This document shows, in pieces, positions 1,238 to 32,551 of a stretch of 64,000 nucleotides of DNA. The notes beneath the pieces are model-generated. The model worked only from the letters and a program-made list of their open reading frames with translations. It did no database searches and was not told the origin of the DNA. Source of the DNA: Pedosphaera sp. (GTDB lineage Bacteria; Verrucomicrobiota; Verrucomicrobiia; Limisphaerales; JADLHS01); NCBI GenBank assembly GCA_009695195.1, contig SIBJ01000009.1, positions 1-64,000 of the forward strand. Reading direction: 5' to 3'. Position numbers and translations under genes: made by a program. Every line of letters begins with the position of its first letter. Within the stretch, counting starts at the first letter, position 1.

Positions 1238-2920
1238 ATGAGATTTCTTCCCGTTGTCGAACGAGAGTTGCGGTCGTCGTCGCGCAGGTTCGGGACGTAC
1301 TGGGTGCGGACGATTGTCGCGGCCGTCGTCGTGGCCATCAGCGGCTTCATGGTGATGGCGATGCGCGACGAGCAGCCGAAGGACGTCGCGGAAATGATTT
1401 TTTGGGGCATCAGCATCGGGGCGATGATTTATTGCCTGCTCGTCGGCATCCATTCGATGGCCGATTGTATCAGCGAGGAGAAGCGCGAGGGAACGCTCGG
1501 CTTGTTGTTTCTCACCGACCTGAAGGGCTACGACGTGGTGCTGGGGAAACTGGTGGCGAATTCGCTGAACAGTTTTTACGGGCTGGCCTCGGTGCTGCCG
1601 GTGCTGGCAGTGACGTTGATGATGGGCGGCATCACCGGCCTGCGGGTGGCGCGCGTGTGTGCGGTGTTGCTGAACACGATGTTCTTCTCGATGTGCGTCG
1701 GGATTTTTGCGTCGGCGTGCAGCCGGTTGCTGCGGCGGGCCAATGCCTTCGCGTTCGCCATCATCCTGTTCTTCACCGGCGTCATTCCGGGACTGGGCGC
1801 GTGGGCGGCGTGGAAACTGGAGCTGCGATTCACGGAGTGGGAATTCTTTTTGTGGACCAGCCCGGTGTATTCGTACATGTCCGCGCAGCAATTGCCGGTT
1901 CCGTTGCTGAGTCCGGTTGGGTTCGCGGGCGCGCTGGCGGTGATTCACTCGCTCGGCTGGTTTTTTTTACTGCTCGCGTGTTTCGTGGCACCGCGGTCGT
2001 GGCAGGACAAGCCGGCGGGCGTGCGGCGGTTGCGCTGGCGGGACCGGTTGAAGAACTGGAGTTACGGCGCGGCGGCATCGCGCGCGGCGTTCCGGCGGCG
2101 GTTGCTGGACGCGAACGCATTTTTCTGGCTGGCGGCGCGGGAACGCTTGAAGCCGGCGTGGGTGTGGACCTTTCTCGGCGTGGTGGCGTGTAGCTGGATT
2201 TGGGGCTGGGTCAAGTTTGGCCACGATTGGTTGAGCGAAGGCATCTACATCACGACGGCGCTCGTGCTGAACGCGGTCTTCAAGAACTGGTTCGCGGCGG
2301 CGGCGACTCGGCAACTGAGCGATGACCGGAAGATGGGCAGCCTGGAGTTGCTGCTCTCGACGCCGTTGACGGTGAGGGAAATTTTGCGCGGCCAGGCGCT
2401 GGCGTTGCGCCGGCAATTTCTCGGCCCGGTGCTGATCGTGTTGCTGGCGGAGATCGTGATGATGGTGGCGGGTATGCGCCATGCGATGGATGGCGCGGAT
2501 CGCACGGTGTGGCTGAATTTATGGGTCTGGTATTTTATGGTGCTGCTGGTGGCGGACTTGATCGCGTTGTATTGGGTCGGGATGTGGATGGGGTTGGCTT
2601 CCAAAAATCCCAAGCGCGCCTACAGCGACACGGCGGGTCGCGTGCTGGCGATGCCATGGATTGTTTTTTCCGGCTTCATGCTGTTGACGGCGCTGCTGTC
2701 GCTGCGGGGCCGAACGGATCTTTCGTGGAAGTTTTTTCTGGGCTTCGGCATCGGCGAGGCGCTGGCGCTGGATCTGATTTTCGCGTTGTGGGCGCGGCAT
2801 CAACTGTTGACGCAGTTCCGCGAGGTGGCGACGAGGCGTTTTCAAACGGGCGCATCGTTCTGGCGGCGAGTGTTCGGGCTGGGAGTTCCCGGCGAGAACG
2901 TTTCGACGGCGAAGGAGTGA
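1238..2920 (+). CDS. ABC-2 type transporter permease, tandem duplicated
   Basis: Predicted 560-residue inner-membrane protein with about a dozen hydrophobic segments. Two halves each carry the short amphipathic segment typical of ABC-2 permeases, before a membrane helix: EEKREGTLGLLFLTDLKG near residue 85 and DDRKMGSLELLLSTPLTV near residue 365. The protein therefore looks like two permease domains fused head to tail. Proteins of this class export lipids, polysaccharides or drugs, or serve gliding and secretion systems, using a separate ATPase. No ATPase gene follows; it may lie upstream of the window's neighbouring genes or be encoded elsewhere. Substrate unknown. The ATG follows GCCGGCCACGTC with no strong ribosome site. 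Confidence 0.85.
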   Translation: MRFLPVVERELRSSSRRFGTYWVRTIVAAVVVAISGFMVMAMRDEQPKDVAEMIFWGISIGAMIYCLLVGIHSMADCISEEKREGTLGLLFLTDLKGYDVVLGKLVANSLNSFYGLASVLPVLAVTLMMGGITGLRVARVCAVLLNTMFFSMCVGIFASACSRLLRRANAFAFAIILFFTGVIPGLGAWAAWKLELRFTEWEFFLWTSPVYSYMSAQQLPVPLLSPVGFAGALAVIHSLGWFFLLLACFVAPRSWQDKPAGVRRLRWRDRLKNWSYGAAASRAAFRRRLLDANAFFWLAARERLKPAWVWTFLGVVACSWIWGWVKFGHDWLSEGIYITTALVLNAVFKNWFAAAATRQLSDDRKMGSLELLLSTPLTVREILRGQALALRRQFLGPVLIVLLAEIVMMVAGMRHAMDGADRTVWLNLWVWYFMVLLVADLIALYWVGMWMGLASKNPKRAYSDTAGRVLAMPWIVFSGFMLLTALLSLRGRTDLSWKFFLGFGIGEALALDLIFALWARHQLLTQFREVATRRFQTGASFWRRVFGLGVPGENVSTAKE

Positions 2921-2948: not shown

Positions 2949-3089
2949 TTTTTCACCGCGGGAATTCCGGCGAAAAATCAGCGGTGAATAACCCGCGGGA
3001 CGAGGCGCTGGAAACCTTGATTCCATTGACGATGCCGAATTGTTCACAGGTTGTTCACCGTCGCGAATCGGTGAACAAGCTGTGGATAT
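2949..3089. promoter_or_regulatory. Cluster of six DnaA-box-like 9-mers
   Basis: Six sites resembling TTATNCACA lie within 141 bp: TTTTTCACC (2949-2957, +), TTATTCACC (2983-2991, -), TTGTTCACA (3040-3048, +), TTGTTCACC (3051-3059, +), TTGTTCACC (3070-3078, -) and ATATCCACA (3081-3089, -). The 4th and 5th form a perfect 10-bp inverted repeat with an 8-nt loop (3051-3078). The density is striking, but most sites deviate from consensus at the last base. The region could be a DnaA-bound origin or promoter, or the operator of another regulator. A somewhat AT-richer stretch follows (3087-3150). Confidence 0.4.
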
Positions 3090-3096
3090 CAATTCG

Positions 3097-3124
3097 TTGT
3101 CGGATTGGGAAACCAAGTTAAGAT
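3097..3124 (+). promoter_or_regulatory. Possible sigma-70 promoter for the structured RNA
   Basis: TTGTCG (3097-3102) and TAAGAT (3119-3124) are separated by 16 bp and resemble -35 and -10 boxes. A start near 3130 would fall just before the first hairpin of the structured region. It overlaps the end of the DnaA-box-like cluster, so the two may interact. Confidence 0.35.
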
Positions 3125-4012
3125 GTTCGCAGTTCATTGAAAGAACTGAGACGGACGGCGGCGATTGAAAAGTTGAGGCCGGAAGTTTCAAGGATAATCC
3201 CAGGCGACTGGGGAAAGGTAGAGTCAGGCTGGTTGGCTCGACCCCTCTCAAGCCGGATCGCAAGGTTCGGGAGCGGAGGCAGAATTCACCAGTTCCTCTG
3301 GCCGCGTTCGCGCGCGGTCAGTACACGCGAAAAAGGAACCTGGCGATGAGGAACGATGAGAAACCGTTCCGAATCGAATCAAGTAGTCCGGGGAGGTTTC
3401 GAACCCGGGCGAAACGCAGTTACCCAGAGGGTAATCGGTTGCTACTGTGCATCAGCACGGGGCGGACGACTCTGGCGGATTCAATCAACCGTTTGAAACC
3501 GCCCAAAGAAAGCCATCGAAAGGTGGACAAACAGAGTGGACGCACCGGGAAGGTCACGCAGGCTCGGCAGGCCGCGTGAAAAACTTCTGAGTGCCGGCGA
3601 TGTTAAAAACGACACCGCTGGCCTGTGAATGAAAGGCAACCTGAGAGTTAAGAGGCGAGACCCGTGGCATCGGGCCAACGCGCGGCCAAAAGTCGTGGCG
3701 GATCCGGTGCCAAGTGGTGAAGACGCGGAAGATAAATCGCAGACATGTCTTTACCTGGTTTGCGGGCCGGTGGCGCAACCACCAGCCCAAGCGAGCTGAA
3801 AAGCCTCACTCGAAATTCAACGTCGCGAGATGTTGGACGGCCCTGCTACGAGGCCGCAGACTCCGCTTGCCGTGGAGAATAGCGTCGGGAAGCCGGCAGC
3901 CGCTGAGAGGCGAGCGCCAAATGTCGGCACGGGAAAGAGAGTGTGGCGAACTCCCATCCCCCGAATTGTCCCTGTCTGACCGCAAGGTCGGGCAGGGACT
4001 CTTCGTTTGTAT
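3125..4012 (+). ncRNA. Candidate large structured non-coding RNA
   Basis: About 880 nt contain no plausible protein but a dense series of compact hairpins. Examples: 3131-3148 (CAGTTC/GAACTG), 3253-3270 (GCAA loop), 3350-3370, 3388-3408, 3420-3434 (TTACCC/GGGTAA), 3447-3458, 3513-3526 (GAAA loop), 3555-3578, 3769-3783, 3839-3855 and 3861-3877. The string ends in a strong terminator. Many stems keep pairing through G-U wobbles and are capped by GNRA tetraloops, as expected of a folded RNA. I see none of the hallmark sequences of RNase P RNA, tmRNA, SRP RNA, 6S or group I introns, nor a clear group II domain V. It could instead be a very long attenuator leader of cysK, whose start is 135 nt beyond the terminator. 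Confidence 0.6.
3968..4012 (+). terminator. Terminator ending the structured RNA
   Basis: GTCCCTGTC (3968-3976) and GACC (3978-3981) pair with GGTC (3986-3989) and GGCAGGGAC (3991-3999) around a GCAA loop. The stem is 14 bp with a few wobbles, followed by the T-rich TCTTCGTTTGTATT. This is typical of intrinsic terminators. Confidence 0.75.
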
Positions 4013-4146: not shown

Positions 4147-5130
4147 ATGGGCCGCATCTATAACAACATTGTTGAAACCGTCGGTCGCACGCCGCTGGTT
4201 CGTTTGAACAAAGTCACCGCCGGCGTTCCGGCCACAGTCTTGCTCAAGTGCGAATTCTTTAATCCACTCGGCAGCGTCAAGGACCGCATCGGCATGTCCA
4301 TGATCGAAGACGCCGAGAAGAGCGGCATCTTGAAGAAGGACACGGTCATCATCGAGCCGACCAGCGGCAACACCGGCATCGCGCTCGCGTTCGTCGCGGC
4401 GGCGAAGGGTTACCAGTTGATTCTCACCATGCCCGAGACGATGTCGCTGGAGCGACGCACGTTGCTGGCGATGCTCGGCGCGAAGCTCGTGCTGACGCCC
4501 GGCACGGAAGGCATGAAGGGCGCCATCGCGAAGGCGGAGCAACTCGCGAAGGAAACGCCGAACGCGTGGATTCCGCAGCAGTTCGAGAATCCATCCAATC
4601 CGGAAATTCACAAACGGACGACGGCGGTGGAGTTGTGGGAGGACACGGATGGGAAGATTGACATTCTCGTCGCCGCCGTCGGCACGGGCGGGACGATCAC
4701 CGGCTGTTACGAAGTCATCAAACCCAAGCGGCCTTCGTTCCAGGCCATCGCAGTCGAACCGAAAGATTCGCCGGTGATTTCGCAGACACTCGCCGGTCAA
4801 CCGCTGAAACCCGGTCCGCATAAGATTCAAGGCACCGGCGCGGGTTTCGTCCCGAAAAATCTCCATCTCAACGACGGGCAGGGCAACCCGCAGATTGCCG
4901 AGTGCGTCCAGGTCACAAACGACGACGCCTTTGCGATGGCGCGCCGGCTGGCGAAGGAGGAAGGAATCCTCGTCGGCATCTCGACCGGAGCAAACGTGGT
5001 CGCGGCGATTGAGGTTGCGAAACGCCCCGAGAACAAAGGCAAGATCATCGTGACGATTGCTTGTTCGACCGGCGAACGCTACTTGAGCACGCCGCTGGCG
5101 GCGGAAGCCCGGGCGGCGGTTGGTGGCTGA
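4147..5130 (+). CDS. cysK: Cysteine synthase (O-acetylserine sulfhydrylase)
   Basis: A 327-residue PLP enzyme that joins O-acetylserine and sulfide to give cysteine and acetate in the cytoplasm. Residues 11-20 match the family opening ([10 protein letters not shown]). K45 in NPLGSVKDR is the expected PLP lysine, TSGNTG (72-77) is the substrate loop, and AVGTGGT binds the PLP phosphate. It is full length for the CysK/CysM family. AAAGGAAAA lies just before the ATG. The gene stands alone, preceded by the structured RNA and followed by a terminator. CysK versus CysM (which can use O-phosphoserine and a sulfur-carrier thiocarboxylate) cannot be settled here; this matters because a CysO-like carrier is encoded at 21.2 kb. 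Confidence 0.93.
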
Positions 5131-22983: not shown

Positions 22984-24240
22984 TTACACCGACACCTTCT
23001 CCTCACTCGCCAGCATCGTTTCAAACTCGCGCAGGCTCGGCTTGATTTCGCGCGTCTTGCCGACGTGGCCCACGACCGCATCGAGCGTCTTCAGGCCGTT
23101 GCCGGTGATGCAGAGCACGGCGGAATCATTCGCCGGAATTTTGCCCGAGGCAATGAGTTTCTTGGCCACGCCCACGGTCACGCCGCCGGCAGTTTCGGCA
23201 AAGATACCTTCTGTTTCCGCGAGCAGGCGGATGGCTTCGCGGATTTCGTCGTCGGTCACGTCGTCGGCGGCGCCGCCGGTTTCCTTCATCACGCGCAACG
23301 CGTAGAAGCCGTCCGCCGGCGTGCCGATGGCGAGCGACTTCGCAATCGTGTTCGGCTTGACGGGCTTGAAGAAATCCAGTCCCGCCTTTTGCGCGACGGA
23401 AATGGGCGAGCACCCGGTCGCTTGCGCGCCGTGGATGTGGTATTCGGTTTCCGAAACGAGGCCGAGCTTCACAAATTCCTGGTAGCCCTTCTGGATTTTC
23501 GTGAGCAAAGAGCCGGACGCCATCGGCACAACGGTGTGTTGCGGGATGCGCCAGCCGGATTGCTCGATGATTTCATACGCCTGACTCTTCGAGCCTTCGG
23601 CGTAGTAGGGCCGCATGTTCACATTCACGAACGCCCAGCCGAACTTGCCCGCGATCTCGGCGCAAAGCCGGTTCACTTCGTCGTAATGGCCCTTGATGGT
23701 GATCACGTTCGCGCCATAGACAAGCGAGTTGACGATTTTTCCCTGCTCCAAATCCGACGGGATGAAAACGTAGGCGCGCAGCCCGGCGGACGCGGCTTGA
23801 GCGGCGACGGAGTTGGCGAGGTTGCCAGTCGAAGCGCACGCCACGGTGTCAAAACCCAGTTCGCGCGCGCGGCTCAATGCGACGCTCACCACGCGGTCTT
23901 TGAAGGACAGCGTGGGGTAGTTGACCGTGTCGTTCTTGATCCAAAGTTCGCGGATGCCGAGGGCTTTGGCGAGCCGGTCGGCTTTGACGAGCGGCGTGAA
24001 ACCGACTTGCAGCCCGACGGTCGGGTCCTTGGCCACGGGCAGCAACTCGCGGTAGCGCCACATGGATTTGGCCCGCGATTGGATCGCGGCCTTGGTCATG
24101 GACTTCTTGATGCGGTCGTAATCGTAGGCAACTTCGAGCGGGCCGAAGTCGAACTCGCAAACGTGCGTGGCTGTGAGCGGATACTCGCGTCCGCACTCGC
24201 GGCACTTGAGCGCCTTCATGAAACCTTGATGTTCACTCAT
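22984..24240 (-). CDS. thrC: Threonine-synthase-like PLP enzyme
   Basis: Predicted 418-residue cytoplasmic enzyme of the ThrC family, which turns O-phosphohomoserine into threonine. An N-terminal zinc-ribbon-like segment has C13, C16 and C28. K114 in LSFKDR is the PLP lysine, and CASTGNLANSVAA and the late CITGNGLKT fit the cofactor-binding loops. Two points suggest a different job: a SAM-I riboswitch precedes it, and downstream genes encode a sulfur carrier and a NIL protein. A variant that places sulfur on O-phosphohomoserine to make homocysteine would fit this context. Ordinary threonine synthase remains the conservative call. Confidence 0.88.
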   Translation of the reverse strand: MSEHQGFMKALKCRECGREYPLTATHVCEFDFGPLEVAYDYDRIKKSMTKAAIQSRAKSMWRYRELLPVAKDPTVGLQVGFTPLVKADRLAKALGIRELWIKNDTVNYPTLSFKDRVVSVALSRARELGFDTVACASTGNLANSVAAQAASAGLRAYVFIPSDLEQGKIVNSLVYGANVITIKGHYDEVNRLCAEIAGKFGWAFVNVNMRPYYAEGSKSQAYEIIEQSGWRIPQHTVVPMASGSLLTKIQKGYQEFVKLGLVSETEYHIHGAQATGCSPISVAQKAGLDFFKPVKPNTIAKSLAIGTPADGFYALRVMKETGGAADDVTDDEIREAIRLLAETEGIFAETAGGVTVGVAKKLIASGKIPANDSAVLCITGNGLKTLDAVVGHVGKTREIKPSLREFETMLASEEKVSV

Positions 24241-24432: not shown

Positions 24433-24566
24433 GACAAATGTTTTTGTGCTCTTCTCATTTTCCCCCGACACCCGTCGGGGCTGGATTTGGCACCTGCATT
24501 GAAATCGAAATTTCAACCGGTTGCCGTGGCGTCATCGGGCCAGTCCCTCAGCCACTCTGCATGAGA
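24433..24566 (-). promoter_or_regulatory. SAM-I (S box) riboswitch
   Basis: Read on the minus strand, the aptamer shows the near-universal SAM-I core: AGAGTGGCTGAGGGACTGGC, CCGATGACGCC, GGCAACC and GGTGCCAAATCC. Stem P1 is closed by TCTCAT (24566-24561) with ATGAGA (24458-24453). P4 is CCCCGAC/GTCGGGG. A terminator follows at 24398-24432. High SAM should stop transcription before the threonine-synthase-like gene. It sits after the metH stop, so the controlled genes are thrC, the zinc-ribbon gene and, if the transcript runs on, the sulfur carrier and NIL gene. Confidence 0.96.
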
Positions 24567-24590
24567 CCGTTGGTATCAACGGATGCGGAT

Positions 24591-24646: not shown

Positions 24647-27600
24647 TCATTTTGCCGGATCGTAATTCAACCACGGCCCAAGCCAGCGTTCCATTTCGGA
24701 GAGCGGTTTGTCTTTGCGGGTGGAGAGGTCTTGCACCTGATCGCGGTCAAGTTTGCCGACGGCGAAGTACTTTGATTCCGGATGTGCGAAGTAGAGTCCG
24801 CTCACACTCGAACCCGGCCACATGGCGAAACTTTCCGTGAGCTTGATGCCGGTATGTTTTTCCACGTCGAGCAGGTCCCAAAGAATTCCTTTCTCGGTGT
24901 GATCGGGGCAGGCGGGGTAGCCAGGCGCCGGACGGATGCCGCGATATTTCTCCGAGATCAAATCTTCGGTGGTGAGCTTTTCGATTTTCCCGAAGCCCCA
25001 CTCATCGCGCGTGCGCTTGTGCAGATACTCGGCGAACGCTTCGGCCAGTCGGTCCGCGAGCGCCTCGGCCATGATGGCGTTGTAGTCGTCGTGGTCAGCC
25101 TTGAACTTCTCGACAATCGCTTTCAAACCATGTCCGCTCGTGACGGCAAAGCCACCAATGAAATCCGGTGAGCCTTTCGGCGCAATGAAGTCAGCCAGGC
25201 ACCAGTTCGGTGTGCCGTCGCCCTTTTCGATTTGTTGACGCAGGAAGTGGAACTTCGTCAAAAGCTTCGCTCGGGATTCGTCCGCGTAAATCTCCACGTC
25301 ATCGCCGACGGCGTTTGCTGGAAACAAGCCATAGACGGCGCGAAGTTGCAGCGATTTCTTGGCGACGAATTCCGCGAGCAACTGCTGCGCGTCGGCGAAA
25401 AGCTTGCGCGCTTCCTCGCCGTGTTTTTCGTGCTGGAGGATCTTGGGATAAACGCCGCGGAGTTCCCAAGTGTGGAAGAAGGGCGACCAGTCAATGAGCG
25501 GCACCAATTCGGCCAGCGAGACGGTGGATTGGCGATTGGCGATTGGCGATTGGCCATCGGAGGAAAGGACACGAACGTCGGTGAACTCAGGCTTCGGTAA
25601 ATCATCGAACTTGAGCTTCGGTGCGTTGGCGCGGGCGGCTTCGAGTGAAAGCAGTTTCACCTGCGACCCGGCGTGATGCGCGCGGGCTTTCTCGTAGTCT
25701 TCGCGCAGTTGTTTCACGAACGGCGCTTTGCCTACTGCGCTCAACAGGCTGCTCACCACGGGCACGGCGCGGCTCGCGTCGAGGACGTGGACGACTGGTT
25801 CGCTATAGTGCTGCGCGATCTTCACCGCCGTGTGGGCGCGGCTCGTGGTCGCGCCGCCGATGAGCAACGGGACTTTCCAGCCGGTGCGTTCCATTTCGCG
25901 CGCGACGTGAACCATTTCGTCCAGCGACGGGGTGATGAGTCCGCTTAAACCGATCAGGTCGGCCTTTTCCAGCTTCGCGCGCTCCAGAATTTTTTCGCAC
26001 GGCACCATCACGCCCATATCAATCACCTCGTAATTGTTACAGGCGAGCACGACGCCGACGATGTTCTTGCCGATGTCATGCACGTCGCCCTTCACAGTGG
26101 CGAGGATGATTTTGCCCTGGACCTTCACGGTCTCGCCCCGCGCCAGCATCGCCGCTTTCTCGGCTTCCATGAACGGGGTGAGATAAGCCACAGCTTTCTT
26201 CATCACGCGCGCGGATTTGACCACCTGCGGCAAAAACATTTTTCCGACGCCAAACAAATCGCCGACCACGCCCATGCCGGCCATGAGCGGCCCTTCGATG
26301 ACTGACAGCGGCTTGCCGTATTTCTGCCGCGCCTCTTCGATGTCGGTATCAATGAAAGCGTCAATGCCCCGCACCAGCGAGTGCGAGAGCCGTTCCTCGA
26401 CTGTGCCTTTGCGCCATTCTTCTTCGACTTTTTTGTCCGTCGCGGTCGTGCCGGCGCTGGCGGCTTTGAGTTTTTCACCGAACGCCACGAGCCGCTCGGT
26501 CGCGTCGGGACGGCGATTCAGCAAAACGTCTTCGACGAGTTCCTTCAACTCCGGCTCAATCTCTTCATAGACTTCGAGCATCCCGGCGTTGACGATGCCC
26601 ATGTCCATGCCGGCCTTAATGGCGTGATAAAGAAACGCGCTGTGCATCGCTTCACGCACCGGATTGTTGCCGCGAAAACCGAACGACACGTTCGACACAC
26701 CGCCGCTAACTTTTGCGTGCGGGAGGTTCGCCTTGATCCAGCGCGTGGCTTCGATGAAGTCCACGGCGTAGTTGTTGTGCTCCTCGATGCCCGTGCCGAC
26801 GGTGAGGATGTTCGGATCGAAAATGATGTCCTCGGGCGGGAAGCCGACTTCATCCACAAGAATGCGATAGGCGCGTTCGCAGATGCGAATCTTGTCCGCC
26901 AGCGTCGCGGCCTGGCCTTGTTCGTCGAACGCCATGACGACGACGGCCGCGCCATACTTCAAAACTTTCCGCGCATGTTCGCGAAACCTCGCCTCGCCTT
27001 CCTTCATCGAGATGGAGTTCACGATGCCTTTGCCTTGAACGCATTTCAGCCCGGCCTCGATGACTTCCCACTTCGACGAGTCTACCATGAACGGGACTTT
27101 GGCGACTTCGGGTTCGCTGCCGAGCAGATGAAGAAAGCGCGACATCGCCGCGACGCCGTCAATCATGCCTTCGTCCATGCAGATATCTATGATGTTCGCG
27201 CCGTTCTCGACCTGCTGCCGCGCAACGGCGACGGCTTCCTCGTATTTATTTTCCTTGATGAGTTTCGCGAACTTCGGCGAACCCGCCACGTTCGTACGCT
27301 CGCCGATCATGAGGAATATCCCGGGCTGCTGCGTGAACGGCTGCGAGCCGGAGAGGCGCAGGGGAAGAGGCGTGATCGGCGCGACTTCTCCCTCTCCTCC
27401 CGCCGAGGGAGGAGAGGGCTGGGGAGAGGAGGCACTTCCATTTTCAGAAGCCCCTCTCTCCATCTCTCTCCCCGTTCGTTCCTCACGGGGAGAGAGGGAT
27501 ATTACGCGCGTCGTTTGCTGCACGAATTCTCGCGGATGCCGCCCCTCCAGCGCCTTCGCGATGGCCACGATGTGTTCGGGCGTGTTGCCGCAGCAGCCGC

Positions 27601-28618
27601 CGGCGATGTTGAGCAAGCCGCTCCGCGCGAACTCACCGAGAAAGTTTCCCATGTCCGCCGGCGTGAGATCAAAGCCTGTGGGCGAAAGCGGATTCGGCAG
27701 GCCGGCGTTCGGATAGCACGAGATTGCGGCGCTCGACTTATCCGCGAGTTCCGCAAGGAATGGGCGCATGAGATCGGGACCGAGCGAACAGTTCAGCCCG
27801 ACCGCGATAGGTTTAACATGCTTCACCGCCGTCCAAAACGCTTCGATGGTTTGCGCAGAGATCATCGTTTCCCCGCCGCGACCCACGGCAGCAGAAATCA
27901 TGATCGGCAAAATCTTTTTGTCCTGCTCGAACACTTCCTGGATCGCCACGAGCGCCGCCTTGGCGTTGAGCGAATCAAAAATCGTTTCGACGAGCAGCAA
28001 GTCCGAGCCGCCCGCGATGAGCGCGCGCACTTGGTTCGCGTAGGCGGCCTTGACCTGGTCAAAGGTGCAAACGCGAAATCCCGCGTCATCCGCATCCGGC
28101 GAGTTGGAGAGCGAAACTGTCAGCGGCCCGACCGCGCCCGCGACAAAACGCTGACGGCCGGTTTTGTTTGCGATGCGGTCGGCCCATTCGCGGCATTGCT
28201 TGGCGGACTGCTCGTTGATTTCCCAGGCGAGATCGTTGAGGGATTTGTCCTCAATGATTTTTTGATAGAACGCCGGGTCTTTGCGCCCGCCATGCTCGCG
28301 CGGGTCGTCCACGAAGAATTCGCTCTGGCCGATGCTCGTTGCCGAGAAGGTGTTCGTCTCAATGATGTCCGCGCCGGCTTCGAGGAAACGGCGATGGATG
28401 TCGCAGATCGTGTCGGGTTGCGTGAGCGAATAGAGGTCGCCGTTGTTCTTGAGGTCCTTCTTCGAGTCTTTGAACCGTTCGCCGCGAATCGCCGACTCGC
28501 CCAACCCGTAGGCGCGGATGGTCGTCCCCATCGCGCCGTCAATGATGGCGATGCGATGGCGCAGGAGTTTGACGAGTTCCTCGCCGCGCGCAAATGGACC
28601 TGATGGCTTTTCGCTCAC
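24647..28618 (-). CDS. metH: Cobalamin-dependent methionine synthase
   Basis: Predicted 1,323-residue enzyme that methylates homocysteine from methyltetrahydrofolate through B12. Domains in order: homocysteine domain (zinc cysteines in GLNCSLGPD near 274 and GGCCGN near 341), folate domain ([14 protein letters not shown]), B12 cap and Rossmann domains (GDVHDIGKN near 842 supplies the cobalt-binding His), and the SAM-dependent reactivation domain ([15 protein letters not shown]). I start at GTG 28618, where homology begins; an ATG at 28726 adds 36 unconserved residues. Two linkers are lengthened by repeat-derived sequence: residues about 372-411 and about 1021-1030. It is transcribed toward the riboswitch cluster. 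Confidence 0.96.
25527..25554. repeat. Four exact GATTGGC heptamers inside metH
   Basis: (GATTGGC)4 spans 28 bp with no interruption. On the coding strand it reads GCCAATC and encodes part of [10 protein letters not shown] in the linker before the reactivation domain. Because the unit is seven bases, gain or loss of one copy would shift the metH frame. Confidence 0.9.
27384..27505. repeat. CCCTCTCC palindromic repeats translated within metH
   Basis: CCCTCTCCTCCC/GGGAGGAGAGGG (27390-27418) and CTCTCTCCCCGT/ACGGGGAGAGAG (about 27463-27496) are two hairpins of the dispersed CCCTCTCCCC family. They encode [16 protein letters not shown] and [16 protein letters not shown] between the homocysteine and folate domains. 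Confidence 0.85.
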
Positions 28619-28836
28619 GGCGGGCAGCTTAGCGTGAGGGCGGGGCAGTGCCAAGTGAAAAATCAACGTATCTGGATATGACGATATGACATTTGAGACG
28701 GCGGGGCGCAACGCCGGGCTTTTCATGCGCCGGGCGATTGTCAGCCGGCAATGATGCGCGACCCGGATGGCAATTTACGAGTGATGCTCGCCAACCGTTT
28801 GCTTGCTTCGCGCTGACCGCTTTCTAAACTCCCGCC

Positions 28837-31762: not shown

Positions 31763-31825
31763 AAACCGAGCAACAAAGTTTCAATGCGCTGTCGGCGAAT
31801 CCGACAGGCGCGGAGCGCCGACAGA

Positions 31826-31884
31826 AGGTAGCCCACGGCGCCAGCCGTGGGTTAATGCGTGAAAACAATCCAAGCCCCGGAGGG
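31826..31884. repeat. Inverted partner of the transposase-flanking repeat
   Basis: GTAGCCCACGGCGCCAGCCG (from 31830) and CCAAGCCCCGGAGGGGCGA (from 31870) are reverse complements of the two halves of the 88-bp repeat that follows at 31894. The pair can fold into a long imperfect hairpin. Confidence 0.75.
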
Positions 31885-31893
31885 GCGAAAGAA

Positions 31894-32551
31894 TCTGTCG
31901 CCCCATCCGGGGCTTGGTTTGATTCAACTTGGAATCCCACGGCTCACGCCATGGGCTACAGTCTGCCGCCGTTCCACGGCTAACGATTATGGCGCACACA
32001 TTCACCAATCTCCTGACGCACATCATTTTCAGCACGATAAACCGGATGCCCACGCTCGAACCCGATCTCAAACAAAGGTTGTTTCCCTACATGGGCGGCA
32101 TCTTTCGCGAACTGGACGCAACTGCGCTTCTGATAAATGGCCCAACCGATCACGTTCACATTCTCGCGGTGCTTCCCGCAAAACTCGCCCCAGCCGAAAT
32201 CATCGGTAAGGTGAAGTCGAATTCCTCCGGCTGGGTTCACAAGACATTTCCAACGCGACAGACATTTTCGTGGCAGGTCGGTTACGCGGCCTTGGGCGTG
32301 AGTCCGTCGCAGAAGCAAACCGTATTGGATTACATCGCCAATCAGGAAGAACACCACCGCAAAATTTTGTTCAAGGAGGAGTTCATTGCGTTCTTGAAAA
32401 AACACGGGATTGAATACGACGAGAAATATCTGTGGGAATGAGCGCGCGATTCCAAATTGTTTTTCTGTCGCCCCTGCCGGGGCTTGGTTTGTTTTGTTCG
32501 TTTGACCCACGGCTGGCGCCGTGGGCTACCATCTGCCGCCACTCCGTGGCT
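31894..32551 (+). mobile_element. IS200-type transposase flanked by 88-bp direct repeats
   Basis: Copies at 31894-31981 and 32464-32551 are both exactly 88 bp and share TCTGTCGCCCC, CCGGGGCTTGGTTTG, CCCACGGCT, TGGGCTAC and TCTGCCGCC blocks. Each contains a palindrome (CCCACGGCTGGCGCCGTGGG in the right copy). A Y1 transposase gene lies between them. This matches a REP-associated transposase unit, in which the enzyme moves or copies the palindromes. It sits between nuoK and nuoL. Confidence 0.75.
31989..32441 (+). CDS. IS200/IS605-type Y1 transposase (RAYT-like)
   Basis: Predicted 150-residue HUH single-strand transposase. The metal-binding HUH motif is DHVHILAVLP (about residue 54) and the likely catalytic tyrosine is in VLDYIANQEEHH (about 120). 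FTNLLTHIIFST opens the fold. It is full length and unbroken, so may be active. Start ATG 31989 lies eight bases after the left 88-bp repeat. Confidence 0.9.
   Translation: MAHTFTNLLTHIIFSTINRMPTLEPDLKQRLFPYMGGIFRELDATALLINGPTDHVHILAVLPAKLAPAEIIGKVKSNSSGWVHKTFPTRQTFSWQVGYAALGVSPSQKQTVLDYIANQEEHHRKILFKEEFIAFLKKHGIEYDEKYLWE

Follow-up and report, generated by a model that had tools for sequence, protein, structure and literature searches.

A MISL RNA gene in Pedosphaera sp. and the DnaA-box-like sites upstream of its predicted promoter

Close to the start of a contig of Pedosphaera sp. lies a stretch that a sequence-only reading had taken for a discrete, elaborately folded non-coding RNA, either new or a verrucomicrobial form of a known class. 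What is this RNA, where does its gene begin and end, and what might control it? We addressed these questions in the 64-kb stretch of contig SIBJ01000009.1 that was analysed as a whole (the window; assembly GCA_009695195.1, 4.46 Mb in 162 contigs) and in relatives of the RNA across the phylum.

Identity, extent and fold of the RNA

A cmscan search against Rfam 15 returns a clear match to a known family, RF03079 (MISL), at 3192-3954 on the forward strand, with 596 bits against a cutoff of 274.6 and an E-value of 1.7e-180. The match spans the whole model (positions 1-751), and the consensus helices carry compensatory changes in relatives. The feature at ~3130-4008 is a MISL RNA gene, belonging to a catalogued family with no known function. 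It is thus a newly found member of an already-known family; a full-length match so far above the cutoff rules out a new one, leaving the verrucomicrobial form of a known class as the correct half of the earlier proposal. No match to RNase P RNA, tmRNA, SRP RNA, 6S RNA or a group I intron overlaps the stretch at gathering score or E <1, in agreement with the reading by eye, and the same holds for GOLLD, ROOL and OLE. The gene is single-copy in the assembly. The family probably goes back to Weinberg et al. in 2017. In the full-text literature searched, a single work mentions MISL, as a structure-probing example.

The RNA shares with RF03079 a full-length match, the consensus structure and the phylum, and nothing excludes its membership; the Rfam model differs in being without two pseudoknots, one helix and the gene ends mapped here. 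The gene is a free-standing unit of ~880 nt that runs ~60 nt 5′ and ~55 nt 3′ beyond the model (Table 1), near the limits of 3125 and 4012 first proposed.

Table 1 Features of the MISL locus in the window
Feature	Position	Strand	Basis
ABC-2 family membrane protein, upstream neighbour	1238-2920	+	ORF; PF12679/PF01061
Outer inverted pair, DnaA-box-like: TTTTTCACC 2949-2957 (+), TTATTCACC 2983-2991 (-)	2949-2991		position shared by many relatives within the order
Putative double DnaA box TTGTTCACA-GG-TTGTTCACC, spacer 2 bp	3040-3059	+	
Putative double DnaA box ATATCCACA-GC-TTGTTCACC, spacer 2 bp, facing the box at 3040-3059	3070-3089	-	
Sigma-70-like promoter: TTGTCG (3097-3102), 16 bp, TAAGAT (3119-3124)	3097-3124	+	sequence; positions conserved in the order
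5′-terminal hairpin, core GUUC-AUUGAAA-GAAC (3132-3146), outside Rfam model	3130-3148	+	near-invariant in relatives
5′ extension, closing helix 3147-3151/3186-3190, outside Rfam model	3147-3190	+	covariation
MISL RNA core, RF03079 1-751	3192-3954	+	596 bits
Pseudoknot helix 3308-3312/3326-3330 (UCGCG/CGCGA)	3308-3330	+	covariation
Long-range pseudoknot helix 3623-3628/3737-3742 (CUGUGA/UCGCAG)	3623-3742	+	covariation
Intrinsic terminator: 14-bp stem 3968-3999, GCAA loop, U-rich tail	3968-4010	+	covariation
Cysteine synthase-like PLP enzyme, downstream neighbour, separate from the RNA	4147-5130	+	ORF; PF00291

The fold has a minimum free energy of -386 kcal/mol (z = -7.6 against dinucleotide shuffles). 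In an alignment of 41 relatives with their flanks, onto which the Rfam consensus was mapped to give 192 pairs including the added 5′ hairpin and terminator, changes on both sides occur in 134 of the 192 pairs. The covariation score of 0.379 compares with 0.160 in shuffled alignments and 0.06-0.09 when partners are slid, none of 500 shuffles scoring as high, and paired cells amount to 87.2%, compared with 74.4% shuffled and 36-41% slid. The sequence-only reading had counted a dozen compact hairpins, several with GNRA loops. The hairpins are real but the number is too low, since the Rfam consensus projected onto the window gives ~19 internal ones plus the 5′ hairpin and the terminator; the GNRA loops are likewise real, the first hairpin loop fitting GNRA in all 112 parseable homologues among 126 examined.

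Three covarying helices are absent from the covariance model, one in the 5′ extension and two forming pseudoknots. The 5′-extension helix is 92% paired with both-side changes in four of its five pairs, the shorter-range pseudoknot is 99.5% paired with such changes in 3/5 pairs, and the long-range pseudoknot 95.5% with 4/6, counts that are somewhat optimistic because the helices were picked from and tested on one alignment. Sliding the partners lowers pairing in the three helices from 95.7% to 24-47%. Covariance models cannot represent pseudoknots, and Rfam's own MISL alignment may already mark both. The 5′ hairpin, GUUC-MUUGAWA-GAAC, is nearly invariant across relatives, so its support comes from conservation and not from covariation. 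Structural work on MISL would need the corrected gene ends and the three extra helices.

The strong 14-bp terminator described by eye is borne out: its 14 pairs are conserved with covariation, the helix being 96.8% paired in the 41 relatives with both-side changes in nine pairs. The promoter-like pair fares less evenly. It is weak, scoring 8/12 against the consensus, and for that reason was not reported by a promoter scan; its positions are nevertheless kept: counted from the base that opens the 5′ hairpin core, 21 aligned members of the order, the window included, have TTG at -35 and TA...T at -13 to -8. This conservation makes the promoter credible and points to transcription starting near 3130. 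Among members of the Opitutaceae-type group, no -10 and -35 elements are obvious. Together these features support the proposed large structured RNA as a discrete predicted transcript with its own promoter and terminator. The absence of a coding signal, also claimed from the letters, is confirmed, as the longest open frame is no longer than in shuffles, substitutions follow no strong 3-base pattern and most indels are not multiples of three; a coding region, intact or degraded, is ruled out.

The covariance model detects MISL in 31/388 genomes sampled across Verrucomicrobiota and in 26/57 close relatives; 14 control genomes gave no match. So patchy a distribution means that replication in the phylum as a whole does not depend on MISL. 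A conserved internal motif retrieves only verrucomicrobial records among the named matches listed, mostly Opitutae/Opitutaceae, Verrucomicrobiales, Pedosphaera and Limisphaerales, although some record names may be misassigned, two of them reading Akkermansia muciniphila. Different families have different genes next to MISL. Judged by eye, these are an hrpB-like helicase or typA-like gene for the Opitutaceae-type group, an M23 peptidase-like gene or cysteine synthase in the order of Pedosphaera sp., and a folC-like gene in another. Without a common neighbour across families, a conserved partner gene is ruled out. MISL occurs on chromosomes and has no match in the plasmid or phage collections searched, which speaks against a mobile element. 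One 5.4-kb IMG/VR contig (L245) carries a full-length MISL at 62-813 (543 bits); this contig may be host sequence wrongly classed as viral.

DnaA-box-like sites upstream of the promoter

In the flanks of relatives, words resembling TTATTCAC recur upstream of MISL in several families, and most relatives carry two to five DnaA-box-like sites just upstream of the MISL promoter. With up to one mismatch allowed, TTWTNCACA occurs at 2.47 sites per locus between -220 and -60, compared with 0.37 in dinucleotide shuffles, and shows no comparable excess further upstream, downstream or inside MISL. We fixed the motif TTDTNCACM on a first set of 47 loci, then tested it on a second set of 75 further loci, taken from the named-genome matches listed after removal of near-identical loci. 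The first set contains the motif in 44/47 loci, with at least two sites within 200 bp in 36/47; background windows hold one site in 2.4% and two or more in 0.03%. In the second set, 67 of the 75 loci have at least one site and 52 at least two, compared with 1/70 and 0/64 in control regions, and the reversed motif appears at 3/75 loci. As loci within each set are related, these counts are not independent, and the agreement between families is the stronger point.

The sites hold fixed positions with respect to the RNA 5′ hairpin, at -51, -62, -80 and -113, some clusters reaching -183. The commonest box, TTATTCACC, differs in its last base from the classical consensus TTATCCACA, while TTATTCACA and other exact TTWTNCACA forms occupy the same slots. 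A clean double box is found in 47 of 126 loci (~37%), the others having single or inverted boxes. A strict inverted-pair pattern searched genome-wide has MISL as its sole match but in just 2 of 7 genomes, and is therefore too strict to be general.

The spacer between tandem sites is 2 bp in 44 cases and 3 bp in 12; no other length up to 24 bp occurs more than twice, and the background is one tandem pair per ~400 kb. A ChIP-seq study in E. coli found that DnaA favours paired boxes with 2 or 3 bp between them and that changing this distance disrupts binding (PMC11317965). The pairs at 3040-3059 and 3070-3089 are the only double boxes in the window; the whole 4.46-Mb assembly contains four instances of the 2-bp-spaced pattern, namely these two at MISL, a third upstream of dnaA and a fourth beside other genes. 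Genome-wide, the tandem pattern picks out MISL and the dnaA upstream region in both Pedosphaera sp. and a second genome (G423) and the dnaA region in a third (G392); single boxes lie upstream of dnaA in most other genomes examined. DnaA of the Pedosphaera sp. genome keeps the domain IV motif GGRDHGTVLHA.

The locus thus displays three features expected of a DnaA-regulated promoter: enrichment of the 9-mer, tandems with 2- or 3-bp spacers and the same sites upstream of dnaA. We read the putative boxes as those of DnaA on the strength of the spacing, the sharing with the dnaA upstream region and the genome-wide rarity, and infer that DnaA occupies them. The double boxes of E. coli, located for example in front of purH, polA and nrdA, likewise consist of 9-mers in tandem with 2 or 3 bp between them (PMC11317965). 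In contrast, the MISL boxes often end in C, and the gene that they putatively regulate is a large non-coding RNA; DnaA targets of this kind are not described in the papers searched. The box architecture, extended ends and extra helices were likewise not found there, in a search that did not cover the likely source of the family.

A predicted DnaA-controlled RNA and competing explanations

Taken together, MISL is probably a trans-acting structured RNA of ~880 nt whose transcription is set by DnaA. The RNA would be transcribed from the sigma-70-type promoter and end at the intrinsic terminator, while DnaA dimers would bind the box pairs centred ~50 and ~80 bp upstream of the start and so adjust promoter activity to how much of the replication initiator is present or to its nucleotide state. 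Proteins bound upstream of a -35 element usually activate. Since the boxes lie upstream of the -35 without covering it, activation fits better than occlusion, and DnaA, known both to activate and to repress (PMC8203912), would be predicted to activate the MISL promoter. Since the neighbours vary and MISL carries a promoter and terminator of its own, action in trans is the natural reading; the RNA would work by virtue of its folded structure, probably by binding or scaffolding a protein or RNA, in a process that may be coupled to replication or growth. The step from being DnaA-controlled to acting on replication or growth is one that we take only tentatively, as possible and short of probable. 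Of similar standing is the complete proposal, in which Verrucomicrobiota could have a DnaA-controlled circuit with MISL as its RNA arm, tracking the initiator level and feeding back on replication or growth. The phylum-wide box cluster poses a direct question: does the replication initiator control MISL, and does MISL act on replication?

GOLLD, ROOL and OLE share with MISL the size class, an ornate fold and an unknown or partly known function, and homo-oligomers have been shown for all three (PMC12286853). They differ in that no Rfam match connects them with MISL, which occurs on chromosomes and has no match in the plasmid or phage collections searched. MISL may serve as a scaffold for proteins, as a sponge or, like these three, as an assembly made of RNA alone.

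Among the competing explanations, it is unlikely, if the least unlikely of them, that the cluster is a site for DnaA titration or reactivation, as datA and DARS are in E. coli, merely lying beside an unregulated RNA. The clustering itself, with some boxes reaching -183, and the variable position of MISL relative to dnaA between complete genomes would suit such a site; pure titration would not require the boxes to keep a constant distance from the RNA 5′ end, as they do in different families, and the cluster accompanies MISL through unrelated gene neighbourhoods. Nearly level with it, and similarly improbable, is binding by another regulator that also controls dnaA. The departure of the commonest box from the classical consensus leaves room for such a protein, DnaA binding itself being inferred, but exact consensus forms occupy the same slots, and the 2- or 3-bp spacer is the reported signature of a DnaA dimer (PMC11317965).

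Very improbable, by comparison, is that the RNA serves the downstream cysteine synthase gene as a cis-acting leader: the two share strand and order in Pedosphaera sp. and several relatives, but a strong conserved terminator separates them, and in other families the downstream gene is unrelated and often on the opposite strand. Least probable of all, and largely refuted, is a chromosomal replication origin marked by MISL, as a DnaA-box cluster beside a stable structured element might suggest, given that GC skew keeps its sign on both sides of MISL (20 kb each) in eight complete or near-complete genomes, in most of which dnaA also lacks a clear skew change so that skew did not locate the origin, and that the MISL-dnaA distance ranges from ~4% to >30% of the genome.

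Other features of the window and of related genomes

Three Rfam matches to Acido-Lenti-1, at 31806-31851 (-), 31936-31981 (+) and 32506-32551 (+), flank a Y1_Tnp transposase gene of the IS200-like, REP-associated type (31986-32438), which sits among nuo genes directly before nuoL. Acido-Lenti-1 here looks like palindromic repeats of the transposase, not an RNA gene. A SAM riboswitch at 24452-24567 (-) is flanked by genes resembling methionine synthase (24647-28726, -) and threonine synthase (22984-24240, -), and therefore precedes the second of these. At 84-203, GGACTGCGGTGGCAAGTCGGACGCGACACCGCTTT and a near-exact complement of it form the arms of an inverted repeat that resembles a small non-autonomous mobile repeat.

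In three Opitutaceae-type genomes (loci L251 1469-3020, L084 1524-3021 and L081), a gene judged by eye to be PIN/PhoH-like likewise has a double or near-double DnaA box in front of it, making this gene a possible further DnaA target.
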